Assembly: GCA_903893135.1 (NCBI GenBank)
Contig: CAITLA010000054.1
Location: 1 to 32,388, forward strand
From: an uncultured Syntrophaceae bacterium
GTDB lineage: Bacteria > Desulfobacterota > Syntrophia > Syntrophales > UBA2185
Direction of reading: 5' to 3'
DNA length: 32,388 nucleotides
The notes beneath the pieces are model-generated. The model was given only the letters and a program-made list of their open reading frames with translations. It searched no databases and was not told where the DNA came from. The translations under genes were made by a program, and so were the position numbers. Below, in pieces: positions 9,169 through 19,892 of the stretch; position 1 is the stretch's first letter, and every line of letters starts with the position of its first letter.

Positions 9169-9939
9169 ATGGAAGATCCTGTAGAAGAAAAAATGCCCTT
9201 TACCTCTCATCTGGAAGAATTACGGACCAGAATCATCCGCATAATCATTGCAGCAGCTATCGGTTTTGGCGTCTGCTGGTATTTTAAGGAATGGCTTTTT
9301 CAGATCATTACAAGACCTCTGCACCAGGTCCTGCCCCCAAACAGCTTTATGATATATACCAGCCTGCCAGAGGCGTTTTTTAACTACATGAAAATCTCTT
9401 TCTATGCGTCCCTTTTTCTTATAAGCCCCTACATACTTTATCAACTGTGGAAATTCATCTCACCCGGTCTCTATAAGTCAGAGAAAAAATATATGTTTCC
9501 GTTCGTTATCTCTTCTACGATTCTGTTTATCTGCGGCATACTGTTCGGATATTATCTTGCCCTTCCTCCGGCATTCAGCTTTTTTGTGGAATTTTCGTCA
9601 GACTTTCTCAAACCCATGTTTTCAATGCGTGAGTATCTTTCCCTCTCCCTGAAGCTCCTGCTTGCGTTTGGTGTGTCCTTTGAACTCCCTGTTGTTATCT
9701 TTTTCTTAGCCAGAATCGGTGTTGTAAATTCAAAAATGTTGTCGCGAAACAGGCGTTACGCCATCCTTATAATATTTATCGCTGCTGCCATCCTGACGCC
9801 TTCCCCTGATGCACTAACCCAGATTATCATGGCTGTCCCCTTGATGGGTCTTTATGAGATTGGTATAATCGTGTCCAAATTAGCCGAAAAGAAACGCCCC
9901 AAAGCAGAAGATTTGAAAGACGATCAAAAGGAAATATGA
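9169..9939 (+). CDS. tatC: Twin-arginine translocase subunit TatC
   Basis: TatC is the multi-span receptor for twin-arginine signal peptides. The 256-residue protein has the diagnostic cytoplasmic start PFTSHLEELRTRI (about residues 10-22), then six hydrophobic segments. The conserved LLLAFGVSFELPVVIFFLARIG block carries the functionally important F-ELPV residues. The C-terminus is a charged cytoplasmic tail. An in-frame stop at 9163-9165 fixes the ATG at 9169 as the earliest start. The nearest Shine-Dalgarno-like AAGAGGAG is about 17 bases away, longer than usual, so translation may be modest. The last four bases overlap the start of the next gene (ATGA), which couples it to the penicillin-binding protein. 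Confidence 0.97.
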   Translation: MEDPVEEKMPFTSHLEELRTRIIRIIIAAAIGFGVCWYFKEWLFQIITRPLHQVLPPNSFMIYTSLPEAFFNYMKISFYASLFLISPYILYQLWKFISPGLYKSEKKYMFPFVISSTILFICGILFGYYLALPPAFSFFVEFSSDFLKPMFSMREYLSLSLKLLLAFGVSFELPVVIFFLARIGVVNSKMLSRNRRYAILIIFIAAAILTPSPDALTQIIMAVPLMGLYEIGIIVSKLAEKKRPKAEDLKDDQKEI

Positions 9940-11978
9940 GACGTAAAGACAAAAAAGCTCACCTTAAACACTCCCGTATGGGCATAGTATTGTTGATAGC
10001 CACACTGTGCTTTCTCATTCTGACAATTATAGTAGGCGGTATCTTGTACTATGTCCTTCACCAGGAATTGCCCAGCATTGCAGCCTTAAAGGACTACCGT
10101 CCCAGCATCGCAACGCGGGTGTACGCAGACAATAATGAACTAATCGATGAATTTTTCATGGAAGATAGAAAAATCATTAAGCTGTCCGAAGTTCCAAAGG
10201 TGGTCATTCAGGCCTTCGTGGCCGCGGAAGATGCGAGATTTTATCAGCATACTGGCTTCGATTTGGTGAGCATGACAAGGGCTTTTTATAAGAATATCGA
10301 AGCCGGTCGCATAGTTCAGGGAGGAAGCACCATAACACAGCAGGTGGCTAAATCCCTGTATCTGTCTTCGGAAAGAAGCTACGTGAGAAAAATCAAGGAG
10401 GCCATCCTGGCCTATAAGATTGACAAGTATCTTTCCAAAGACGAAATCATGAACTTATACCTCAACCACATATATTTAGGGCACGGCACTTACGGCATTG
10501 AGGCAGCATCACAAGGATATTTTGGAAAAAGCGCTAGAAATCTGAACCTCGTTGAAGCCTCACTCCTGGCCGGTCTTCCCAAGGCGCCCAGCAGCTATTC
10601 TCCTTTCCTCCATCTTGACAAGGCTCGCCAGAGACAGGCATACGTGCTTGAGAGGATGGTCGAAGACGAATATATCACCGCGGCAGAGAAAGAGCGGGCC
10701 CTTGCAGCGCCCATAATCCTCAAGTCCATCAGACCTAAAGAAAAAATTGCCCCTTACTTTGTCGAAAACATTCGCAAATACATTATGGAAAAATACGGGA
10801 GCGACGTACTGTACAAAGAAGGTCTTGAGGTTTTTACTACCCTTAACATAGAAATGCAGAAAGCGGCAAGGGACGCCGTGGAAAGAGGCCTTCAAGAATT
10901 GGAAGAACGGGAGAAATATGAGAAGGGGCTCGTTCAGGGGGCTCTTCTCTGTATGGATGTGAAGACCGGTGCTATCACGGCTATGGTCGGGGGCAGGGAT
11001 TTCAAAAAGAGTGAATTCAACCGTGCCACCCAGTCACGGAGGCAGCCGGGATCAGCATTTAAGCCATTTATATACACAGCCGCTTTCGACAAGGGCATGA
11101 CGCCATCAACACGGATTCTGGATGCCCCCATTGTCTATGAGGACAGAGCCTCGCCAGACGGTCTCTGGAAACCAAGAAACTTTGACGGGAAATTCAATGG
11201 GCCGACCACCCTTAGAAGTGCCCTCGTGCAGTCAAGGAATATCATTACGATAAAGGTTCTCCAGGAGATTGGGGTCGATTATGCCGCCGCATATGCTACG
11301 AATATGGGGATAACTTCTCCTCTGTCAAGGACTCTATCCCTGGCACTGGGGACATCGGGCGTCACCCTTCAGGAAATGGTCAGGGGATACGGCGTCCTGG
11401 CAAACCAGGGCAAACGGGTCGTTCCTTTCTTCATCAGGAAAATCGTTGATCGAACAGGTCATATCTTTGAAGAGGCCCAGGTAAAAAGCGAGGATGTTAT
11501 CGATTCCCGAATAGCATTTATGACATCCTATGTAATGCAAGATGTCGTGGAAAGCGGAACGGGGAGACGGGTAAAGAGCATCGGCAGGCCTGTTGCAGGC
11601 AAAACGGGAACGACAGATGATACGAGAGATGCCTGGTTCATAGGCTTTACGCCGTCTCTGGTGGCAGGGGTATGGGTTGGTTTTGACCAGGAAAGCTCCC
11701 TCGGCAGAGAAGAAGTGGGGGGCAGGGCTGCAGCGCCCATATGGCTCTATTTTATGGAAAAAGCCCTGCAAGGCAGGGCCAGGGAAGTTTTTCCCGTCCC
11801 GGACGGAATTGTTTTCATCAAGGTAGACCCTCACACGGGTATTCCGGCGACACGGTCGACCCAGGATGCCATATTCGAGAGCTTTCTCGAGGGTACCACA
11901 GGGACTCGTGCAGTACCCATAGAAATTAAGGAGGCGCAGGAGGAAACCAACGGACGCGATAAGGACAGTCCCCGTTAA
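9936..11978 (+). CDS. Class A penicillin-binding protein (PBP1A type), glycosyltransferase plus transpeptidase
   Basis: A bifunctional peptidoglycan synthase of 680 residues. A cytoplasmic basic start is followed by one transmembrane span (about 16-40). The GT51 glycosyltransferase domain has catalytic Glu98 in AAEDARFYQHTGFD and GGSTITQQ at 129-136. The transpeptidase domain has the active Ser373 and Lys376 in QPGSAFKPF, the SRN motif in VQSRNIITIKV, and KTG at 556-558. At 680 residues it is shorter than E. coli PBP1A (about 850), consistent with lack of the inserted OB-like domain. Its ATG overlaps the tatC stop. No clear terminator follows, but a new promoter begins 22 bases after its stop. 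The Tat pairing may be incidental. Confidence 0.95.
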   Translation: MRRKDKKAHLKHSRMGIVLLIATLCFLILTIIVGGILYYVLHQELPSIAALKDYRPSIATRVYADNNELIDEFFMEDRKIIKLSEVPKVVIQAFVAAEDARFYQHTGFDLVSMTRAFYKNIEAGRIVQGGSTITQQVAKSLYLSSERSYVRKIKEAILAYKIDKYLSKDEIMNLYLNHIYLGHGTYGIEAASQGYFGKSARNLNLVEASLLAGLPKAPSSYSPFLHLDKARQRQAYVLERMVEDEYITAAEKERALAAPIILKSIRPKEKIAPYFVENIRKYIMEKYGSDVLYKEGLEVFTTLNIEMQKAARDAVERGLQELEEREKYEKGLVQGALLCMDVKTGAITAMVGGRDFKKSEFNRATQSRRQPGSAFKPFIYTAAFDKGMTPSTRILDAPIVYEDRASPDGLWKPRNFDGKFNGPTTLRSALVQSRNIITIKVLQEIGVDYAAAYATNMGITSPLSRTLSLALGTSGVTLQEMVRGYGVLANQGKRVVPFFIRKIVDRTGHIFEEAQVKSEDVIDSRIAFMTSYVMQDVVESGTGRRVKSIGRPVAGKTGTTDDTRDAWFIGFTPSLVAGVWVGFDQESSLGREEVGGRAAAPIWLYFMEKALQGRAREVFPVPDGIVFIKVDPHTGIPATRSTQDAIFESFLEGTTGTRAVPIEIKEAQEETNGRDKDSPR

Positions 11979-11999: not shown

Positions 12000-12027
12000 T
12001 TGACAAATCTAACTTTTGGTATAAGAT
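12000..12027 (+). promoter_or_regulatory. Promoter of the first ilv operon
   Basis: A perfect TTGACA at 12000-12005 is followed after 16 bases by TAAGAT (12022-12027). An overlapping TATAAG gives a better -10 hexamer but a 14-base spacer. Transcription would start near 12034, just before the leader peptide. Confidence 0.65.
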
Positions 12028-12060
12028 CAGGTCAGTAAATTACTTAATAAGGGCAAGCAA

Positions 12061-12150
12061 ATGACCCGTCACAGCCTGAGCAACAATATGCCTATCGTAG
12101 CCGTAGTAGTAGTATCTGTACTTCGGGGGACCGCTGCTCGGTTTCTGTGA
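12061..12150 (+). CDS. Val/Leu-rich leader peptide of the ilvB1 operon (attenuator sensor)
   Basis: An open frame of 29 codons between the promoter and ilvB1. It contains MPIVAVVVVSVL at residues 10-21, with six Val (every one GTA), one Ile and three Leu in total. AAGGG lies 7 bases before the ATG at 12061, and an internal in-frame ATG at 12088 is an alternative start. The peptide resembles in design the E. coli ilvB leader (ivbL), which has a run of Val codons plus Leu and no Ile. Starvation for Val-tRNA would stall ribosomes at 12097-12120. Bases 12124-12134, just after the control codons, can pair with 12175-12184 and so break the terminator stem that follows. Confidence 0.85.
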   Translation: MTRHSLSNNMPIVAVVVVSVLRGTAARFL

Positions 12151-12170
12151 TTGAATGACATAGAACTAAG

Positions 12171-12202
12171 AGCCGCGGGCCCCGCTAACCCGCGGCTTTT
12201 TT
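12171..12202 (+). terminator. Attenuator terminator of the ilvB1 operon
   Basis: AGCCGCGGG (12171-12179) pairs perfectly with CCCGCGGCT (12189-12197) across a 9-base loop and runs into six T. A competing antiterminator is visible. CGGGG (12124-12128) pairs with CCCCG (12180-12184), and CCGC (12131-12134) pairs with GCGG (12175-12178). These nine GC pairs would occupy the left arm of the terminator. Confidence 0.88.
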
Positions 12203-12211
12203 GTGCTTATG

Positions 12212-12250
12212 AAGCCGCTGTGCAGATGAACTGGCGGCTTTTCTGTTTTC
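12212..12250 (+). terminator. Second, weaker hairpin with T-rich tail before ilvB1
   Basis: AAGCCGC (12212-12218) pairs with GCGGCTT (12234-12240), followed by TTCTGTTTTC. Its left arm is also complementary to the right arm of the preceding terminator (GCGGCTT, 12192-12198), so the two hairpins can rearrange. It ends 19 bases before ilvB1. Confidence 0.55.
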
Positions 12251-12269
12251 TGAATAGCAAGGAGCAAAT

Positions 12270-13943
12270 ATGGAAACCATTGGCGCAGATATAGTTATAC
12301 AAATCTTAAGAGAAGAAGGTGTTGATGTAATCTTCGGATACCCGGGGGCAAACACCCTACCCATTCATGACCGGTTGATAAACAGCCAGGTCCGTCATTA
12401 CCTCATGCGACACGAACAGGCAGCAGCTCATGCTGCTGACGGCTACGCGCGTGCTACCGGCAAAGTAGGCGTCTGCATCGCCACGTCTGGGCCCGGGGCT
12501 ACCAATCTGGTGACAGGTATTGCCACGGCCTTCATGGACTCAACACCCATGGTCGCCCTTACGGCACAGGTGAGCACGAGCCTCCTGGGACATGACGCCT
12601 TCCAGGAGACGGACATCATCGGGATAACATTGCCTATCACAAAACACAGTTACCAGGTGCATGATGTGAATAATCTTGCAGCAACACTGAGGCAGGCATT
12701 TGAACTCGCCACGACTGGCAGGCCGGGTCCGGTCTTAGTGGATATCCCCCGCGACATTCTCTCCTCGAAATGCCAACCGGCAGAAAAACAAGCGGAACCC
12801 GTGCTGAAGATAAACAACAAGGCTTCGGAAGATCACGAACAGCTGGAGAAAATTGCCAAGACATTGAATCAGAGTGAAAGACCTATCCTCATCATCGGAG
12901 GAGGAGTTAAACTTAGCAATGCCTTTCGCCTGATCCGCGAGCTTATAGAAAGGGCGAAGATCCCCTTCGTTACAACGATGATGGGCATCGGTTCCGTAGA
13001 TTCCGTTAATGGATACAGCCTGGGATTGATAGGAACACACGGGAATGAACTGGCAAACCGGATGGTGCATCAATGCGATTTTATTCTGGCCATAGGTACA
13101 CGCTTCTCAGATCGCAGTACAGCACTTATTGAAGAATTCGCGCCTCTGGCGAAAATTGCCCAGATCGATATCGATCCCACCTCAATCGGCAAGAGCATCA
13201 AGATTAATCTGCCGTACGTCGGTGATATTCGTGATGCCCTTACGGCGTTGCTGCCCCTCGTTGACGAGAAGGAAAAGTCGGAGTGGCTACAGAGGATCCA
13301 GGCGGAGCGTGAAGCCATTGACGATAAAGTCGCTGACACCGGGTGCGGACAGGCGGGAGATTTTATTCGGATGGTACAGGAGGCCATGCCTATCGAAACA
13401 ACGGTGACTGCGGATGTGGGATTGAACCAGATATGGACAGTGCGCACCTGGCAGGCACGCAGCCCCCGCAGTCTCATTACGAGCGGCGGCATGGGTACAA
13501 TGGGATTCAGCCTGCCCGCCGCGATCGGCGCCAAGGTCGGCACTCCGGAGAGGGCAGTCGTCGCTATCACAGGCGACGGAGGATTCTATATGAACATCCA
13601 GGAACTGGCTACTATCGGCTACTACAATTTACCAATAAAGATTGTCGTCATCAATAACGGCCATCTGGGGATGATCCGCCAGATTCAGGATCTTTTTTAC
13701 AATGCCCGCTTTACCTCTATTGATTTGGGAAGCAAGGTTGATTTTGTGACGGTTGCCCGGGGGTTCGGTATCCCGGGGAGCAAGGTTGCCGTGGATAGAG
13801 ATCCAAAGGCGGGCATCGAAGCTATGGTTAAAGCCGATGGCCCGTACCTGCTGGAAGCCGTTGTTGATCCGGAAAACTATGTATACCCCATCATACCGCC
13901 GGGATGCTCGAATATCGAGATGATGTACGACAGACTTGACTGA
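12270..13943 (+). CDS. ilvB: Acetohydroxyacid synthase catalytic subunit 1, Trp-lacking variant
   Basis: A ThDP- and FAD-type AHAS large subunit of 557 residues. It condenses pyruvate with pyruvate (to Val/Leu) or 2-ketobutyrate (to Ile). The FGYPGANTLP start, the catalytic-Glu motif MRHEQAAAHAADGYAR and the ThDP motif GDGGFYMNIQELATIGYYNLPIKIVVINN are intact. The substrate-pocket motif is LGMIRQIQDLFY. Ile472 replaces the Trp of RQWQ that confers 2-ketobutyrate preference, whereas Met is kept. E. coli AHAS I likewise lacks this Trp (HQQQ). The usual RFDDR is RFSDR. AAGGAG lies 5 bases before the ATG. The gene follows a Val/Leu leader attenuator and is paired with its own small subunit 23 bases downstream. 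I infer mainly acetolactate formation. A catabolic synthase is less likely given the adjacent ACT subunit. Confidence 0.93.
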   Translation: METIGADIVIQILREEGVDVIFGYPGANTLPIHDRLINSQVRHYLMRHEQAAAHAADGYARATGKVGVCIATSGPGATNLVTGIATAFMDSTPMVALTAQVSTSLLGHDAFQETDIIGITLPITKHSYQVHDVNNLAATLRQAFELATTGRPGPVLVDIPRDILSSKCQPAEKQAEPVLKINNKASEDHEQLEKIAKTLNQSERPILIIGGGVKLSNAFRLIRELIERAKIPFVTTMMGIGSVDSVNGYSLGLIGTHGNELANRMVHQCDFILAIGTRFSDRSTALIEEFAPLAKIAQIDIDPTSIGKSIKINLPYVGDIRDALTALLPLVDEKEKSEWLQRIQAEREAIDDKVADTGCGQAGDFIRMVQEAMPIETTVTADVGLNQIWTVRTWQARSPRSLITSGGMGTMGFSLPAAIGAKVGTPERAVVAITGDGGFYMNIQELATIGYYNLPIKIVVINNGHLGMIRQIQDLFYNARFTSIDLGSKVDFVTVARGFGIPGSKVAVDRDPKAGIEAMVKADGPYLLEAVVDPENYVYPIIPPGCSNIEMMYDRLD

Positions 13944-13966
13944 AAAATAACTGCGGAGGATCTACC

Positions 13967-14479
13967 ATGTTAAGAAAAGTGCGCGAACAGGAACAGACCA
14001 TTTCCATTCTGGTCAACAATCAGCCGGGCGTGCTGTCCCGTGTGGGAGGTGTGTTTGGCCGCCATGGATACAACATCAAGAGCCTCTGCGTGGCAGAAAC
14101 GACGAACCCCGACGTTTCGAGAATTACCCTGACCAGTGAATCGGATCCTGATTTTACTGAAAAGATAAAAAAACAGCTGGACAAGCTGGTAGATATAATC
14201 GATGTCTCCGATGTCTCTGGACAGGCCTACATTCAGAGAGAGTTAATGATGATTGGCGTTACTGTCAAAGAGGGGGCATATTCGGAGATCATGCGGGCAA
14301 TTGAACTGTTCGGCTGCAGAATCGTCACCATGACAACGGATTATTTCATCCTGGAATTGACTGGCCAGCCGGATGAAACAGCAGCATTCCTGAAATTCTT
14401 CCAGTTATTCGGTGTGGAAGAAATAAATAGAACCGGGTCAATTGCTATTGAGAGAACGAAGCCCAAAAGAAAAATCTAG
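13967..14479 (+). CDS. ilvN: Acetohydroxyacid synthase regulatory subunit 1 (ACT domain)
   Basis: The small AHAS subunit, 170 residues, stimulates the catalytic subunit and mediates feedback inhibition, usually by valine. The N-terminal ACT domain reads ISILVNNQPGVLSRVGGVFGRHGYNIKSL. The effector-site Gly21 (Gly14 of E. coli IlvH) and Asn36 (Asn29) are both kept, so valine binding is expected to be normal. The C-terminal second ACT-like half follows (REMM-like RELMMIGVTVKEG, then RTGSIAIER). GGAGG lies 8 bases before the ATG at 13967. It pairs with ilvB1 by position and ends about 20 bases before the promoter of the second ilv operon. The contrast with IlvH2, which has Asp at the Gly position, is informative. 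Confidence 0.95.
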   Translation: MLRKVREQEQTISILVNNQPGVLSRVGGVFGRHGYNIKSLCVAETTNPDVSRITLTSESDPDFTEKIKKQLDKLVDIIDVSDVSGQAYIQRELMMIGVTVKEGAYSEIMRAIELFGCRIVTMTTDYFILELTGQPDETAAFLKFFQLFGVEEINRTGSIAIERTKPKRKI

Positions 14480-14497
14480 AAAAATTATAAAATATTC

Positions 14498-14526
14498 TTG
14501 ACAATATTATGGGAGGCTGTTAAGAA
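14498..14526 (+). promoter_or_regulatory. Promoter of the second ilv operon
   Basis: A perfect TTGACA at 14498-14503 has a weak -10 TAAGAA after 17 bases (14521-14526). The first ilv promoter also has a perfect -35 and a TAAGAT-type -10, so the two may share control. Transcription would start near 14533. Confidence 0.5.
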
Positions 14527-14554
14527 GATCACTAAAGTGAGGAATGATAACTAT

Positions 14555-14632
14555 ATGGACGCGTTTAACATCGCAAACATCGTCATAATTATTATCGGGA
14601 TAATCATTCCCTTCCATAGGGGGGCTGGATGA
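14555..14632 (+). CDS. Ile-rich leader peptide of the ilvB2 operon (attenuator sensor)
   Basis: An open frame of 25 codons containing NIVIIIIGIIIP at residues 8-19. Nine of 25 residues are Ile (ATC, ATT and ATA mixed), one is Val and none is Leu. GAGGA lies 11 bases before the ATG at 14555. The frame stops at TGA 14630-14632, about 30 bases before a strong terminator. Ribosomes stalled at the Ile codons (14570-14608) would leave 14634-14641 free. That stretch can pair with 14656-14659 and 14667-14670 and so block the left arm of the terminator. A ribosome at the stop codon would cover it. The design matches a classical amino-acid attenuator tuned to isoleucine. Confidence 0.85.
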   Translation: MDAFNIANIVIIIIGIIIPFHRGAG

Positions 14633-14662
14633 TGGTTTGCGCTTAGTACATAGTTCGCAGTT

Positions 14663-14699
14663 AAAAAACCGTTACCAGCCAAAGGTAACGGTTTTTTTT
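14663..14699 (+). terminator. Attenuator terminator of the ilvB2 operon
   Basis: AACCGTTACC (14667-14676) pairs with GGTAACGGTT (14684-14693) across the loop AGCCAAA, and flanking A and T runs extend the stem to 14 bp (14663-14697). The T run is eight long (14692-14699). A weaker alternative stem (GGTT with AACC, TGCG with CGCA) upstream would compete with it. Confidence 0.9.
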
Positions 14700-14710
14700 G
14701 GAGAAATGTC

Positions 14711-14759
14711 CCTGCAGGTGTTAAGCGGGGAAAGTCCCCGTCCTCACCTTCCATGCAGG
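14711..14759 (+). other. Nested stem structure in the ilvB2 leader
   Basis: Three nested perfect stems are visible: CCTGCA/TGCAGG (14711-14716/14754-14759), GGTG/CACC (14717-14720/14745-14748) and CGGGGA/TCCCCG (14726-14731/14735-14740). There is no T run, so it is not a terminator. It lies after the attenuator and about 45 bases before the ilvB2 start. It may be an mRNA-stability or processing element. Confidence 0.5.
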
Positions 14760-14805
14760 TGGAGGACACTGGAGGAGGGGATTCATAACAAGGGGGTAGA
14801 GAAAA

Positions 14806-16494
14806 GTGAAGTTAACGGGAGCACAGGTTCTTTTTAATGCTTTGGAACAGGAGAAAGTTGATACCATCTTTGGTTTTCCGGGTGGAGCCGTGCTCGACAT
14901 TTTTGATGAGCTGTACAGAAGGAAAATCAAGAACATTTTAGTGCGGCATGAACAGGGCGCCATTCACGCAGCCGACGGATATGCCAGGGTTTCCGGCAAG
15001 GTCGGTGTATGCCTGGTTACGTCAGGTCCCGGAGCAACCAACACGGTTACCGGTATCGCCAATGCGTTCATGGATTCCATCCCTGTCGTCGTGCTGACAG
15101 GTCAGGTGGCGACCTCTTTGATTGGCGGCGACGCCTTCCAGGAAGTGGACATCACCGGTATTACAAGGCCATGCACGAAGCATAATTTTCTGGTCAGGCG
15201 GATTGACGACCTGGGACGCATCGTCAGGGAGGCTTTTGACATTGCCCGGGGAGGACGCCCCGGTCCGGTCCTGATTGACATTCCCAAGGATATTACACGG
15301 TCTCTCATAGAGGATACTGATGTATCCTGGACATCAAGTCTTTCTAATAACAACCAGAAGGCTTCTATCGAAGATGCATGTGCGAAGGCCCTCGACATGA
15401 TCAGGAAAGCTGAAAGACCGCTCATAATCTCAGGTGGCGGTGTGTTGCTCGGGCGTGCGCCCGATGAGTTGAGAGCTTTCGTAAAAATGCTTAACGTGCC
15501 CATTACCTCGACCCTTATGGGGATCGGGGCGTTTCCCGCTTCCGACCCCCACTGGCTCGGTATGCCGGGGATGCATGGCACATATTATGCCAACATGGCA
15601 ATCAGTCATTGCGACCTCTTAATCGCCTTGGGTGTCCGGTTTGATGATCGGGTCACTTCAAAGCTTGACGCCTTTGCGCCCCACGCCAAGGTCCTTCACA
15701 TCGACATTGACCCTGCGTCCATCGATAAATTTGTAAAGACGCATCTGTCGATCGCAAGCGATTGCAAGCCCGTGTTGCAGCTTCTCAATAAGTGGATAGG
15801 CGACGATAGTTTTGTAATCCCTGAAAAACAAACGAAGGCATGGCTCGATCAGATTGACCAGTGGAAAAAGTTTGCCCCTATGACATACTGCCAGACTGAC
15901 AAAATCAAGCCTCAATTTGTCGTTGAGACACTTTATCGTCTCACGGAAGGAAAAGCGATCATCGCGACAGAAGTGGGGCAGAACCAGATGTGGGCAGCAC
16001 AATTTTATCATTTCGATTACCCTTATTCATGGATTACGTCGGGCGGGTTGGGAACAATGGGTTATGGATTTCCGGCTGCCATCGGCGCGCAGGTTGCGCG
16101 TCCTGACAAGGTCGTCGTAGATATTGCCGGAGATGGAAGTATCCAGATGAACATTCAGGAACTGGCAACGGCTGTTAATTATGACCTTCCCGTTAAGATA
16201 GTCATTCTCAACAACGGATTTTTAGGCATGGTTCGCCAATGGCAGGAACTATTCTACGGAAAGCGTTATTCCCAAAGCAATATATCCAATGTGCCTGACT
16301 TTGTGAAACTTGCCGAGGCTTACGGCGCTGTGGGCCTGCGGGCGACACGCCCCGAAGAGGTGGAGACCACATTAAGGAAGGGTCTTGATACTCCAAAGAC
16401 GGTCGTAATGGATTTCCATGTCGAACCCGAGGAGGGTGTATACCCCATGGTTACACCAGGCGCGGCGATCACAGATATGGTCTTAAGCAAATAG
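14806..16494 (+). CDS. ilvB: Acetohydroxyacid synthase catalytic subunit 2, canonical
   Basis: A second AHAS large subunit, 562 residues. It has FGFPGGAVLDIFD, the catalytic-Glu motif VRHEQGAIHAADGYAR, RFDDRVT, and the ThDP motif GDGSIQMNIQELATAVNYDLPVKIVILNN. The substrate motif LGMVRQWQELFY keeps Trp479, the residue that makes AHAS prefer 2-ketobutyrate as second substrate, so this isozyme should supply isoleucine efficiently. The start is GTG at 14806 with AGGGGG 9 bases upstream. It heads the block ilvB2-ilvH2-ilvC-ilvD behind an Ile-rich leader attenuator. Clear divergence from IlvB1 across the whole length indicates an old paralogue pair, not a recent tandem duplication. Confidence 0.96.
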   Translation: MKLTGAQVLFNALEQEKVDTIFGFPGGAVLDIFDELYRRKIKNILVRHEQGAIHAADGYARVSGKVGVCLVTSGPGATNTVTGIANAFMDSIPVVVLTGQVATSLIGGDAFQEVDITGITRPCTKHNFLVRRIDDLGRIVREAFDIARGGRPGPVLIDIPKDITRSLIEDTDVSWTSSLSNNNQKASIEDACAKALDMIRKAERPLIISGGGVLLGRAPDELRAFVKMLNVPITSTLMGIGAFPASDPHWLGMPGMHGTYYANMAISHCDLLIALGVRFDDRVTSKLDAFAPHAKVLHIDIDPASIDKFVKTHLSIASDCKPVLQLLNKWIGDDSFVIPEKQTKAWLDQIDQWKKFAPMTYCQTDKIKPQFVVETLYRLTEGKAIIATEVGQNQMWAAQFYHFDYPYSWITSGGLGTMGYGFPAAIGAQVARPDKVVVDIAGDGSIQMNIQELATAVNYDLPVKIVILNNGFLGMVRQWQELFYGKRYSQSNISNVPDFVKLAEAYGAVGLRATRPEEVETTLRKGLDTPKTVVMDFHVEPEEGVYPMVTPGAAITDMVLSK

Positions 16495-16538
16495 GATAGA
16501 CTGGAATATATCAAATTTATTGTGAGGTGAACGAGCTT

Positions 16539-17024
16539 ATGGAAGTAAAAGAGAATACCATTTCCATCTTGGTAAATAACAGACCCGATGTTCTGGCCAG
16601 GATCGCGGGAACATTCAGTGGCCGCGGGTTCAATATCGAAAGTATCTCGGCAAATATCACGAGAAATCCTGAAATTACCAGGATCATTGTTACAACACTC
16701 GGTTCCAGGGAAACCGTCATCAAACTTGAAAAGCAGCTTTCGAAGATCATCGATGTCCTTGAAGTGAAGGATTTGACGCGTGTCAATGCGGCCTGCCGGG
16801 AAATGGTTCTGGTGAGGATGAAGCTAACCGATGCAAATCACATGAAAATCATGCAGACTGTTGACACCCTTAAGTGGAAGATTGTAAGAATGGATGCTGA
16901 CACCTGCATACTGGAAGTAACAGGCGGCAAAAAGGAAATCGATGATGCCCTGGCTCTTTTAGACACAATGGGCATGGATGATTTTACAAGAACGGGGGTT
17001 GTCGCCCTGGAGCGTCAGAAATAG
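16539..17024 (+). CDS. ilvH: Acetohydroxyacid synthase regulatory subunit 2, Gly-to-Asp at effector site
   Basis: An ACT-domain AHAS small subunit of 161 residues. The ATG at 16539 is chosen because GAGGTGA lies 8 bases before it; an in-frame GTG at 16527 falls inside that ribosome-binding site. The first ACT domain reads TISILVNNRPDVLARIAGTFSGRGFNIES. At the position of E. coli IlvH Gly14 it has Asp17 (GAT, 16587-16589), while the effector Asn is kept. The Gly14Asp change in E. coli IlvH gives valine-resistant AHAS III. I infer that this subunit activates IlvB2 but responds poorly to valine. The C-terminal half (REMVLVRMKL..., RTGVVALERQ) is normal. ilvC follows after 79 bases. Confidence 0.94.
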   Translation: MEVKENTISILVNNRPDVLARIAGTFSGRGFNIESISANITRNPEITRIIVTTLGSRETVIKLEKQLSKIIDVLEVKDLTRVNAACREMVLVRMKLTDANHMKIMQTVDTLKWKIVRMDADTCILEVTGGKKEIDDALALLDTMGMDDFTRTGVVALERQK

Positions 17025-17103
17025 TCGCAAATCAGGAGTTTCCAGAGTGCACACCCCACAATACTATTGATCATTCAATTCATAACAATGAGGAGGTACT
17101 AAT

Positions 17104-18150
17104 ATGCCTAAAATCAACATCGGCGGGGTCATGGAAGAGGTTGTCACATCCGAGGAGTTTACCCTCGAAAAGGCGCGTAAGGCGCTCAAGAATGAAATTG
17201 TTGCCGTCATCGGCTACGGTGTGCAGGGACGCGGTCAGGCCCTAAACATGAGGGATAACGGAATCCGCTGCATCGTCGGTGAAGGAGACTTCAACTGGCA
17301 AAAGGCGATTGATGAAGGCTTCAAGCCAGGCGAGACGCTTTTCCCACCAATAGAAGCTGCCAAGCGCGGCACAATTATTCAGTACCTGATGTCCGATGCG
17401 GGTCAGAAGGCCATGTGGCCGGAACTCAAGCCTACCCTGACAAAAGGAAAGGCCATCTATTTTTCTCATGGCTTCTCCATCGTTTATAAAGATCAGACCG
17501 GTGTGATCCCTCCATCCGACATCGATGTTATTCTGGTAGCCCCAAAAGGCGCCGGCCGCACGGTGCGCGACAATTTTCTTGCCGGAAGCGGCATTAATTC
17601 CAGTTACGCCGTTTTCCAGGACGCCACAGGAAAGGCCATGGAAAGGACCCTCGCCGTAGGTATTGCCATAGGATCTGGGTATCTGTTCCCCACCACCTTT
17701 GAACAGGAAGTTTACAGCGACCTCACAGGTGAACGTGGCGTCCTCATGGGTTGTCTGGCCGGCGTCCTCGAAGCACAGTATAATGTTCTACGCAAGCATG
17801 GACACAGCCCCAGTGAAGCCTTCAATGAAACCGTGGAGGAATTGACGCAGAGCCTCATGCCGCTCGTCGCGCAAAACGGCATGGACTGGATGTACGCCAA
17901 TTGCAGTACAACTGCCCAGAGGGGCGCCTTGGACTGGAAAAACAGGTTCCGTGACGCTGTAGCGCCTGTCTTCGACGAATTATATGACAGAGTGGCGTCC
18001 GGTAAGGAAACCGCCATTGTCCTGGAAGTCAACTCTGCCCCCGATTACAGGGAGAAACTGCAGAAGGAACTCGATACCATGAAAAACAGCGAGATGTGGC
18101 AGGCAGGTGCCATGGTTCGTGCACTGAGGCCGGAACGGAGAAAGAAGTAG
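17104..18150 (+). CDS. ilvC: Ketol-acid reductoisomerase, class I, with atypical cofactor loop
   Basis: KARI isomerises and reduces acetolactate or acetohydroxybutyrate, the second step of Val/Leu/Ile synthesis, using Mg and NAD(P)H. The 348 residues match the short class I form. The Rossmann motif is [19 protein letters not shown] (about 35-53). The following cofactor-specificity loop reads [11 protein letters not shown]. It is shorter than the common GLRPGSxSW pattern, lacks its Arg and Ser, and carries Glu60 and Asp62. Acidic residues here repel the 2'-phosphate of NADPH, so NADH use is likely. [23 protein letters not shown], and the metal-site [14 protein letters not shown] are intact. 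GAGGAGGT precedes the ATG. It is followed by ilvD after 80 bases. Confidence 0.95.
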
Positions 18151-18230
18151 GGAATGACTTAACCGGGCCGGCGTTGCGATACCAATGCTCTGCGCATACC
18201 GCGCATTGCAGAACACACAAGGAGGAAAGC

Positions 18231-19892
18231 ATGCGAAGCGACCTGATGAAAAAAGGGCTTGAACGGGCGCCCCACAGATCCCTGTTCAAAGCCATGGGGT
18301 ATACGGATGAAGAAATTGCACAGCCCTTGATAGGCGTTGTGAATTCCGCCAATGAAATCATACCCGGCCACATTCATTTAGACCTTATAACCGCAGACGT
18401 AAAATCAGGCATCCGCATGGCAGGCGGAACGCCTGTCGAATTCCCCGTCATCGGCGTTTGCGACGGGATTGCCATGGGACATACAGGCATGAAATACTCC
18501 CTTGCCAGCCGGGAGCTCATTGCCGATTCCATTGAGGTCATGGCTATGGCCCATCCCTTCGATGCCCTGGTTATGATCCCCAACTGCGACAAGATAATCC
18601 CCGGGATGTTGATGGCGGCGCTTCGCCTGAACATCCCTACCATTTTCATCAGCGGCGGTCCTATGATGGCGGGAACACTGGAAGGTAAGACGGTTGATCT
18701 CATCAGCGTCTTCGAAGGTGTGGGAAAGGTGAAATCTCGCCAGATGACGGAGCAATATCTCAAGGCCTTGGAAGACTGTGCCTGCCCGGGCTGTGGATCA
18801 TGCTCTGGCATGTACACGGCAAATTCCATGAACTGCGTCACCGAGGCCCTTGGTCTCGGTCTGCCCGGAAATGGCACCATACCTGCCGTCCAGGCGGCCC
18901 GGCGGCGTCTGGCAAAGCAGGCCGGCAGAAAGATCATGGAACTCCTCAAGAAAGATATCCGTCCGCGGAAAATCGCCACGCTTTCGGCCTTTAAGAATGC
19001 CATCGCCGTGGACATGGCCCTGGGATGTTCGACCAATACGGTCCTCCATATCCCCGCCATTGCCCACGAAGCGGGAATTAAACTGGACCTCGACCTGTTT
19101 AATGAGATCAGTAAGAAGACCCCTAATCTCTGCAAGCTAAGCCCTGCGGGGCAACACCATTTGGAAGACCTGGACATGGCGGGTGGTGTCCAGGCTGTGA
19201 TGAAGCAAATCAGTCAGCTCGGCGTCATTGACCTGAAAGCCTTGACCGTTACGGGCCAGGCGGTAGGTGTAAATATGAAAGGAGCTGCGGTGTTAAATAG
19301 CGACGTCATCCGGCCGCTTAACAATCCTTATACGAAGGAAGGTGGTATTGCTATCCTCAGAGGAAATCTGGCCCCCGATGGCGCCGTCGTCAAGCAGTCC
19401 GCTGTTGCGGAAAAAATGCTCGTAAATCACGGCCGGGCCCGCGTCTTCGACTCCGAGGAGAATGCCATAGCCTCTATCCTCGGCAGAAAGATCAAACCGG
19501 GCGACATCGTCGTCATCCGCTATGAAGGGCCGAAAGGAGGACCGGGCATGCGCGAGATGTTAGCGCCGACATCGGTCATCGCCGGTATGGGACTCGATAC
19601 GACGGTGTCTCTCCTGACTGATGGAAGGTTCAGCGGCGGAACCCGCGGGGCGGCTATCGGACACATCTCTCCGGAAGCAGCCGAGGGAGGCCCCATAGCT
19701 CTTGTCAAGGAAGGCGACACCATCACCATCAATATCCCGAAGAAAACAATTACCCTGAATGTCAGCCCGGAAGAATTGAAGAAAAGACAGGCTAAATTCA
19801 AACCGCGGCCACCGGCGGTTAAAAGCGGCTATCTGGTCCGGTATGCCAGATTGGTTACCTCCGCAAGCACGGGCGCCATTTTGAAAGACTGA
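18231..19892 (+). CDS. ilvD: Dihydroxyacid dehydratase
   Basis: IlvD dehydrates the dihydroxy acids from KARI to 2-keto acids, the last common step of branched-chain synthesis. The 553-residue protein shows [25 protein letters not shown], the iron-sulfur Cys motifs [10 protein letters not shown] (Cys119) and [18 protein letters not shown], and a C-terminal swivelling domain with [11 protein letters not shown]. The early motif is PGHIHL as in E. coli IlvD, not PCNxHL, which suggests the oxygen-labile [4Fe-4S] type. That would suit an anaerobe. The ATG at 18231 is chosen because AAGGAGG precedes it by 6 bases. The frame is open upstream to 18096, but that part overlaps the ilvC end. An 18-bp hairpin lies 35 bases downstream. 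Confidence 0.97.

Follow-up and report, generated by a model that had tools for sequence, protein, structure and literature searches.

How does an organism that holds two acetohydroxyacid synthases (AHAS) side by side divide the work between them, and is each enzyme controlled by the amino acid that it helps to make? This question is raised by contig CAITLA010000054.1 (assembly GCA_903893135.1) of an uncultured Syntrophaceae bacterium of the order Syntrophales, whose 32,388 nucleotides are referred to here as the window. Positions 12000-19892 carry, all on the + strand, a first leader, ilvB1, ilvN1, a second leader, ilvB2, ilvH2, ilvC and ilvD. The initial annotation had proposed two AHAS modules in this block, and all of their elements were located by profile matches and by reading of the open reading frames (ORFs). 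We consider it likely, with a probability of roughly 70%, that the block consists of two adjoining transcription units, each with a ribosome-mediated attenuator, and that the isozymes split the labour by end product. We infer enzyme specificity, valine response and attenuation in both modules from the sequence. The features are as follows.

12000..12027, + strand: putative sigma-70 promoter of module 1 (TTGACA, 16 nt, TAAGAT; 10/12 in a consensus scan)
12061..12150, + strand: leader peptide 1, Val-rich, with C-terminal GTAARFL (ORF reading and conservation; weak against shuffles)
12126..12183, + strand: predicted antiterminator 1 (12126-12139 with 12170-12183; inner hairpin 12143-12165)
12171..12202, + strand: predicted attenuator terminator 1 with T run (RNAfold, -21.7 kcal/mol for 12160-12205)
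12270..13943, + strand: ilvB1, AHAS large subunit without the specificity Trp, with Ile instead (TIGR00118, 663.5 bits)
13967..14479, + strand: ilvN1, two-domain AHAS small subunit with the valine-site Gly (TIGR00119, 163.6 bits)
14498..14503, + strand: TTGACA, putative -35 element of module 2 (sequence reading; no good -10 element downstream; absent from the scan list)
14555..14632, + strand: leader peptide 2, Ile-rich (ORF reading, shuffles and conservation; alternative GTG start at 14537)
14623..14680, + strand: predicted antiterminator 2 (14623-14637 with 14667-14680; RNAfold, -22.5 kcal/mol for 14622-14684)
14667..14699, + strand: predicted attenuator terminator 2 with T run (RNAfold, -18.9 kcal/mol for 14655-14705)
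14806..16494, + strand: ilvB2, AHAS large subunit with the specificity Trp (TIGR00118, 805.5 bits)
16539..17024, + strand: ilvH2, two-domain AHAS small subunit with Asp at the valine-site Gly (TIGR00119, 126.1 bits; GTG start at 16527 possible)
17104..18150, + strand: ilvC (TIGR00465; sole copy in the genome above the family cut-off)
18231..19892, + strand: ilvD (TIGR00110, 800.7 bits)
9936..11978, + strand: upstream neighbour, penicillin-binding protein (PBP) 1A-family gene, which precedes the Val-type leader (TIGR02074, 664 bits)

Both large subunits score above the curated cut-off of TIGR00118 and both small subunits above that of TIGR00119. At the specificity position IlvB1 reads LGMIRQIQ, with Ile, compared with LGMVRQWQ, with Trp, in IlvB2. 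PMC5727371 describes this Trp as a key site for 2-ketobutyrate; AHAS I has Gln there and shows no preference, and changing the Trp of AHAS II to Leu abolishes the preference for 2-ketobutyrate. At the valine site IlvN1 reads NNQPGVLSR, with Gly, and IlvH2 reads NNRPDVLAR, with Asp. According to the same paper, E. coli AHAS III becomes insensitive to valine when a conserved Gly of its small subunit is changed, and AHAS II, which is valine-insensitive, does not keep that Gly. PMC5727371 numbers the residue by its own alignment, and on our reading of the sequences it would be the Gly of the PGVLSR motif. IlvB1 would thus have little preference for 2-ketobutyrate over pyruvate and would serve mainly valine and leucine, and IlvN1, with its Gly kept, would place module 1 under valine feedback. 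IlvB2 with its Trp would prefer 2-ketobutyrate and serve isoleucine, and IlvH2, with Asp at the Gly presumed to govern valine insensitivity, would probably not be shut by valine.

These residues were followed through 119 sampled genomes of the order, where ilvB1 was found in 53 and ilvB2 in 93. Both isozymes are present in 40 genomes, ilvB2 only in 53, ilvB1 only in 13 and neither in 13; the classes were assigned by hand from match lists that end at weaker matches, and fragments of a missing isozyme may be overlooked. Among full-length large subunits (>450 aa), Trp occupies the specificity position in 79/79 readable IlvB2 (81 sequences, one masked and one cut at the site), and Ile, Met or Leu does so in 49/49 IlvB1. 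Small subunits were counted only where a pattern located them, which left out 4 of the 81 IlvB2 rows and 3 of the 49 IlvB1 rows (G052 stands twice among the latter). Gly was found in 46/46 located IlvN1 and Asp in 77/77 located IlvH2, 33 of them from two-isozyme and 44 from ilvB2-only genomes. One further AHAS from a genome of the order (L167), 55% identical to IlvB2 and with a small-subunit Gly, was excluded from the IlvB2 class by its identity.

The leaders differ in the codons that they carry. Leader 2 (14555-14632) encodes MDAFNIANIVIIIIGIIIPFHRGAG up to its stop, with nine Ile and one Val. An equally I/V/L-rich ORF appeared in 0/2000 dinucleotide shuffles of its region, and it ranks first for I/V/L richness among the 685 short ORFs of the window. 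Leader 1 (12061-12150, 29 residues) encodes MTRHSLSNNMPIVAVVVVSVLRGTAARFL up to its stop, with six Val and one Leu within the run and two further Leu elsewhere. This makes it a Val leader, with Leu as a minor component. The initial annotation had called it a Val/Leu leader, which is right for Val and overstated for Leu; a separate Leu-rich leader precedes leuA. Each is a short ORF with a run of codons for a product amino acid, although leader 1 is weak on shuffles alone: 62 of the 2000 match it, and it shares fourth place with three others among the 685 ORFs. Leader 1 is convincing because it is conserved in relatives, not through its own statistics.

A search for the same pair of leaders in relatives, as the initial annotation had suggested, recovered it widely. 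Before ilvB1, the best 14-residue stretch contains 0-3 Ile compared with 6-13 Val and Leu in 44/49 rows; the remaining five are G078, with a candidate leader further upstream, and four genomes with a combined leader. Before ilvB2 in two-isozyme genomes, 28 of the 29 labelled rows have an Ile-dominated leader and one (G044) a mixed or Val-type leader. The match between leader codons and specificity residue in each module, as first proposed for this block, is thus conserved across the order. In a genome of the same genus (G030, L005) a run of N lies inside leader 2, between ilvN1 and ilvB2, and the terminator is intact.

The predicted folds of both leaders contain a terminator and a mutually exclusive antiterminator that involves the end of the leader ORF. 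For leader 1, RNA whose free part begins at 12118 or 12124, as it would with a ribosome paused at the Val codons, has the antiterminator, with three four-pair helices, as its minimum-energy fold (RNAfold); for free RNA that begins at 12112, or at 12130 or later, the best fold is the terminator. Antiterminator 2 reaches -22.5 kcal/mol ahead of synthesis of the 3′ arm of the terminator, and among six sequences of leader 2 the cut-off consensus fold retains 105/108 pair cells. Across the order, a terminator-like hairpin (at most -8 kcal/mol, followed by at least 4 T) lies within 170 nt past the leader stop for 121/125 best upstream ORFs, compared with 43/300 random locus stretches. If the 3′ arm is left out of the fold, the terminator 5′ arm pairs instead with the end of the leader ORF, by 5 bases or more, in 105 of these 121. 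On average 8.9 bases do so, compared with 4.5 after single-base shuffling of the upstream part, a control in which the shuffled mean reaches 5 in 43/121. The Rfam scan of the window returned no family at gathering score, and the sigma-70 consensus scan found 12 sites compared with 7.2 in shuffles.

We propose the following mechanism. When charging of valyl-tRNA falls short, the ribosome would stall in leader 1, the antiterminator would form and ilvB1 and ilvN1 would be expressed. A shortage of charged isoleucyl-tRNA would likewise stall the ribosome in leader 2 and, through its antiterminator, allow expression of ilvB2, ilvH2, ilvC and ilvD. Leucine would be sensed separately, at leuA.

We next asked whether the leader before ilvB2 goes with the isozyme set. 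While two-isozyme genomes almost always have the Ile-dominated type, the 43 labelled rows of ilvB2-only genomes comprise 36 mixed Val/Ile/Leu and 7 Ile-dominated leaders (Fisher p = 2.5e-12, with rows treated as independent though they are related). Labels were given to 72 of the 81 ilvB2 rows. G030, G055, G056, G069, G071, G082, G090, G139 and G142 are unlabelled, and among these G055, G056, G139 and G142 were removed by hand, as their best ORF was unconvincing as a leader; by eye, G056 has a weaker mixed leader with GGIISPL. A third arrangement is found in four genomes of family f19, where ilvB2 directly follows ilvN1 with no space for an internal leader. G055, G071 and G082 hold both pairs on one contig, and the contig of G090 begins in ilvN1, 84 nt before ilvB2. 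The single leader of these four genomes carries 5-6 Ile together with Val and Leu. Attenuator codons thus tend to follow the isozyme set across the order, but independent switches are few and, with relatedness taken into account, the link is not significant.

Several observations weigh against a division of labour by end product with matching attenuators. Once the RNA of leader 2 includes the 3′ arm, the terminator has the lower energy for all starts tried, and the choice must therefore be kinetic, made during transcription. The six sequences of this leader show one compensatory pair in the full terminator fold and none in the antiterminator fold, a count that speaks neither for nor against the antiterminator. 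The thirteen ilvB1-only genomes have a Val/Leu leader where it is readable (12 rows), and the Trp enzyme is not among their listed matches.

The Asp of IlvH2 raises a further difficulty. The initial annotation had counted it as part of the two-isozyme design; as a marker of the two-isozyme state it was rejected, since all 44 located IlvH2 of ilvB2-only genomes carry it as well. In such a lone AHAS, Asp would leave valine without control at the enzyme level. One could instead suppose that Asp leaves valine control intact, with the Ile module inhibited by valine or another effector and feedback undivided, which would suit the ilvB2-only genomes, where a valine-blind enzyme would mean no enzyme-level valine control. 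However, Gly is kept in all 46 located IlvN1 and in 18/18 small subunits from the same phylum outside the order, and change of the Gly yields a valine-insensitive AHAS III, just as AHAS II lacks it (PMC5727371; the identity of the Gly is our reading). We therefore find an intact valine response of the Ile module somewhat doubtful. The outside sequences come from the 20 best loci of a phylum search: besides the window itself, these comprise 19 loci outside the order, and 18 of the 19 yielded a small subunit. Given Gly in all 18 and Asp in every located IlvH2, the change to Asp probably dates to the ancestor of the order or close to it, as far as these sequences indicate. By our judgement, none of these 18 loci has a clear branched-chain leader. 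L223 comes nearest, having VVVVL in a short ORF that lies 335-419 nt upstream.

The pattern could also be phylogenetic, with clades that happen to combine an Ile leader with ilvB1, or have neither, and no functional coupling between the two. On the IlvB2 tree, as few as 4 leader changes and 6 changes in the presence of ilvB1 suffice; among six independent pairs, 0-2 agree (mean 1.5) and 0 disagree, so few that significance cannot be reached. Ile-dominated leaders also occur in the ilvB2-only genomes G041, G057, G089, G091, G106, G119 and G134. The leader of G089 is borderline (4 Ile compared with 3 Val); G091, G106, G119 and G134 come from genera with other, ilvB1-bearing members, and a loss of ilvB1 to an assembly gap is possible in these four. 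Conversely, the two-isozyme genome G044 retains a Val-type leader before ilvB2. Its ilvB1 and ilvB2 are placed in different parts of their trees, and it has two ilvC-ilvD sets, one behind each AHAS pair (L049, L198), a pattern that fits a recent transfer or a mixed bin. Against a purely phylogenetic origin, the ilvB2-only genomes G047, G048 and G063, with mixed leaders, are nested among two-isozyme genomes, though G041, from the same region of the tree, is a counter-example; and in the family that lacks an internal leader the one leader is combined. We regard a lack of functional coupling as unlikely.

That labour is divided by carbon supply, with IlvB1N1 working at high flux or low pyruvate, as has been proposed for E. 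coli AHAS I, and with leaders that only tune it, is improbable: IlvB1 is nearest to the large subunit of AHAS isozyme 1 among solved structures, both without the Trp, and thirteen genomes have ilvB1 only, but a division of this kind predicts no leader split, whereas Val/Leu leaders stand before ilvB1 (44/49) and Ile leaders before the adjoining ilvB2 (28/29).

Division by end product thus remains our preferred reading, and the neighbouring genes bear on the history of the leaders. A PBP gene lies within 900 nt before ilvB1 in 23/39 ilvB1 rows of two-isozyme genomes. Before ilvB2 it lies within this distance in 19/46 rows of ilvB2-only genomes, compared with 0/37 in two-isozyme genomes; short upstream stretches depress the counts of 23/39 and 19/46. 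From these positions, one regulatory slot, behind the PBP gene, seems to have changed hands between the isozymes. A lone ilvB2 mostly stands behind a mixed Val/Ile/Leu leader; in genomes that also have ilvB1 and ilvN1, often in the slot behind the presumed old leader, ilvB2 tends to have an Ile leader. We give even chances to the broader proposal that the attenuator is re-written as the isozyme set changes. The leader in the PBP slot would be mixed for a lone AHAS and Val/Leu once a second AHAS with an Ile leader takes over isoleucine, and the natural Asp, found order-wide, would free the isoleucine-type enzyme from valine feedback. In G049 (L124, L150) we observed two IlvB2-type genes, each behind a Val-rich leader.

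The origin of IlvB1 was addressed with a tree of the large subunits, another of the checks named in the initial annotation. IlvB1 and IlvB2 fall into separate clades (SH-aLRT 100 and 99) in this tree, which was built quickly and carried long-branch warnings. We rejected an origin of IlvB1 by recent tandem duplication of IlvB2, since full-length pairs are about 41-46% identical and the clades are separate. By sequence search, the solved structure closest to IlvB1 is 6lpi, the large subunit of AHAS isozyme 1, which matches E. coli IlvB in sequence. In the tree, IlvB1 forms a clade of its own (support 100), and E. coli IlvB sits on a long branch in an open fork, with a long-branch warning. Outside the order, the best match to IlvB1 in the phylum sample (L214, G271) carries Phe in place of the Trp and is preceded by a short ORF rich in Val and Leu; no small subunit was found on that stretch. 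AHAS of the Gastranaerophilales type (L045-L048, L051-L053) likewise have Phe at the Trp position (Leu in one row), despite belonging to a different clade.

How does the split fit into branched-chain synthesis in this genome as a whole? A single ilvC exceeds the TIGR00465 cut-off, and it is sited behind the Ile leader. Valine and leucine synthesis in this genome would therefore depend on a gene set by isoleucine, with its flux passing through the Ile module, as the initial annotation had pointed out. The siting of ilvC varies: family f14 has it behind ilvB1-ilvN1. In that family (L185-L191) neither ilvC nor ilvD was found within the few kb fetched behind ilvB2-ilvH2, which follow an Ile leader, and L186 gave no IlvH2 match.

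Leucine appears to be read mainly by a third leader, before leuA. The genome has a Leu-rich leader ORF before leuA (L205, L208) with the tail RRPSFLGNP or a close variant, and a leuA leader with the conserved tail is present at 7/8 leuA loci of the family, the eighth locus being cut. At 3 of these 7 another ORF scored higher, and the leader was picked by its tail. For isoleucine, a citramalate synthase is present above the TIGR00977 cut-off, and no match above cut-off to TIGR01127, the one threonine deaminase family searched, was found in the genome. On this basis 2-ketobutyrate probably also comes from pyruvate, and isoleucine synthesis probably starts from citramalate. The citramalate synthase gene (L206:1213-2810, contig G000:C130) is split over two frames; in G032, G033, G034 and G037 it is a single open frame.

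Besides the two modules named in the initial annotation, the genome has a third AHAS-like large-subunit gene (L210:3214-5025, contig G000:C67), which lies just above the TIGR00118 cut-off, at 543 compared with 538.35 bits. It has a cysteine-containing insert, and similar matches occur in G032, G034 and G035. No small subunit was found on the 6.8 kb fetched around it.

We compared the two modules with known systems. Like module 1, E. coli ilvBN (AHAS I) has a Val-rich leader, IvbL (32 residues, 29 here), a large subunit without the specificity Trp (Gln in E. coli, Ile here) and a small subunit in which the Gly is kept. However, the E. coli small subunit is short, at 96 aa, and of one domain, whereas IlvN1 has 170 aa and two domains, its TIGR00119 match spanning residues 9-164, and the tree does not establish a sister relation between IlvB1 and E. 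coli IlvB. Like module 2, E. coli ilvGMEDA (AHAS II) has the Trp in its large subunit and has lost the valine-site Gly, and the position is acidic in both (Glu in IlvM, NPETLERV; Asp in IlvH2). Unlike leader 2, with its nine Ile and one Val, E. coli IlvL carries Ile, Val and Leu. The small subunit of module 2 further differs from the short, one-domain small subunit of AHAS II in having two domains: IlvH2, of 161 aa, aligns over residues 7-159 and 2-159 to 2f1f and 2fgc.

With ilvIH (AHAS III), module 2 shares a place for IlvB2 in the IlvI-holding part of the tree and a two-domain small subunit of the same length class. E. coli IlvH, though, has the valine-site Gly where IlvH2 has Asp (77/77 located), and ilvIH is regulated through Lrp rather than a leader. 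Judged by sequence, module 2 would therefore be AHAS II-like by its residues and belong on the AHAS III side by tree and small-subunit length, and we file neither module as a member of AHAS I or AHAS II. In Corynebacterium ilvBNC and Staphylococcus ilv, too, branched-chain residues occur in a short ORF before the ilv operon, but with one leader for one operon, as far as the listed titles and abstract beginnings indicate (PMC10272879, PMC11857589, PMC5794164).

No description of paired AHAS attenuators in Syntrophales was found in the titles and abstract beginnings of the open-licence matches listed, and the main text of PMC2965389 mentions neither ilv nor Syntrophus. Attenuators and AHAS isozymes are themselves classical, and what we describe is a real, well conserved arrangement of known parts. 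The way in which regulation keeps pace with enzyme specialisation has usually been argued from single cases. Syntrophales offers genomes with either enzyme, with both, and with both in one unit, and their regulatory codons can be read in the DNA, which makes the question directly testable. The natural Asp, present in every located member at a residue known from valine-resistant enzymes, provides a clean enzyme test.

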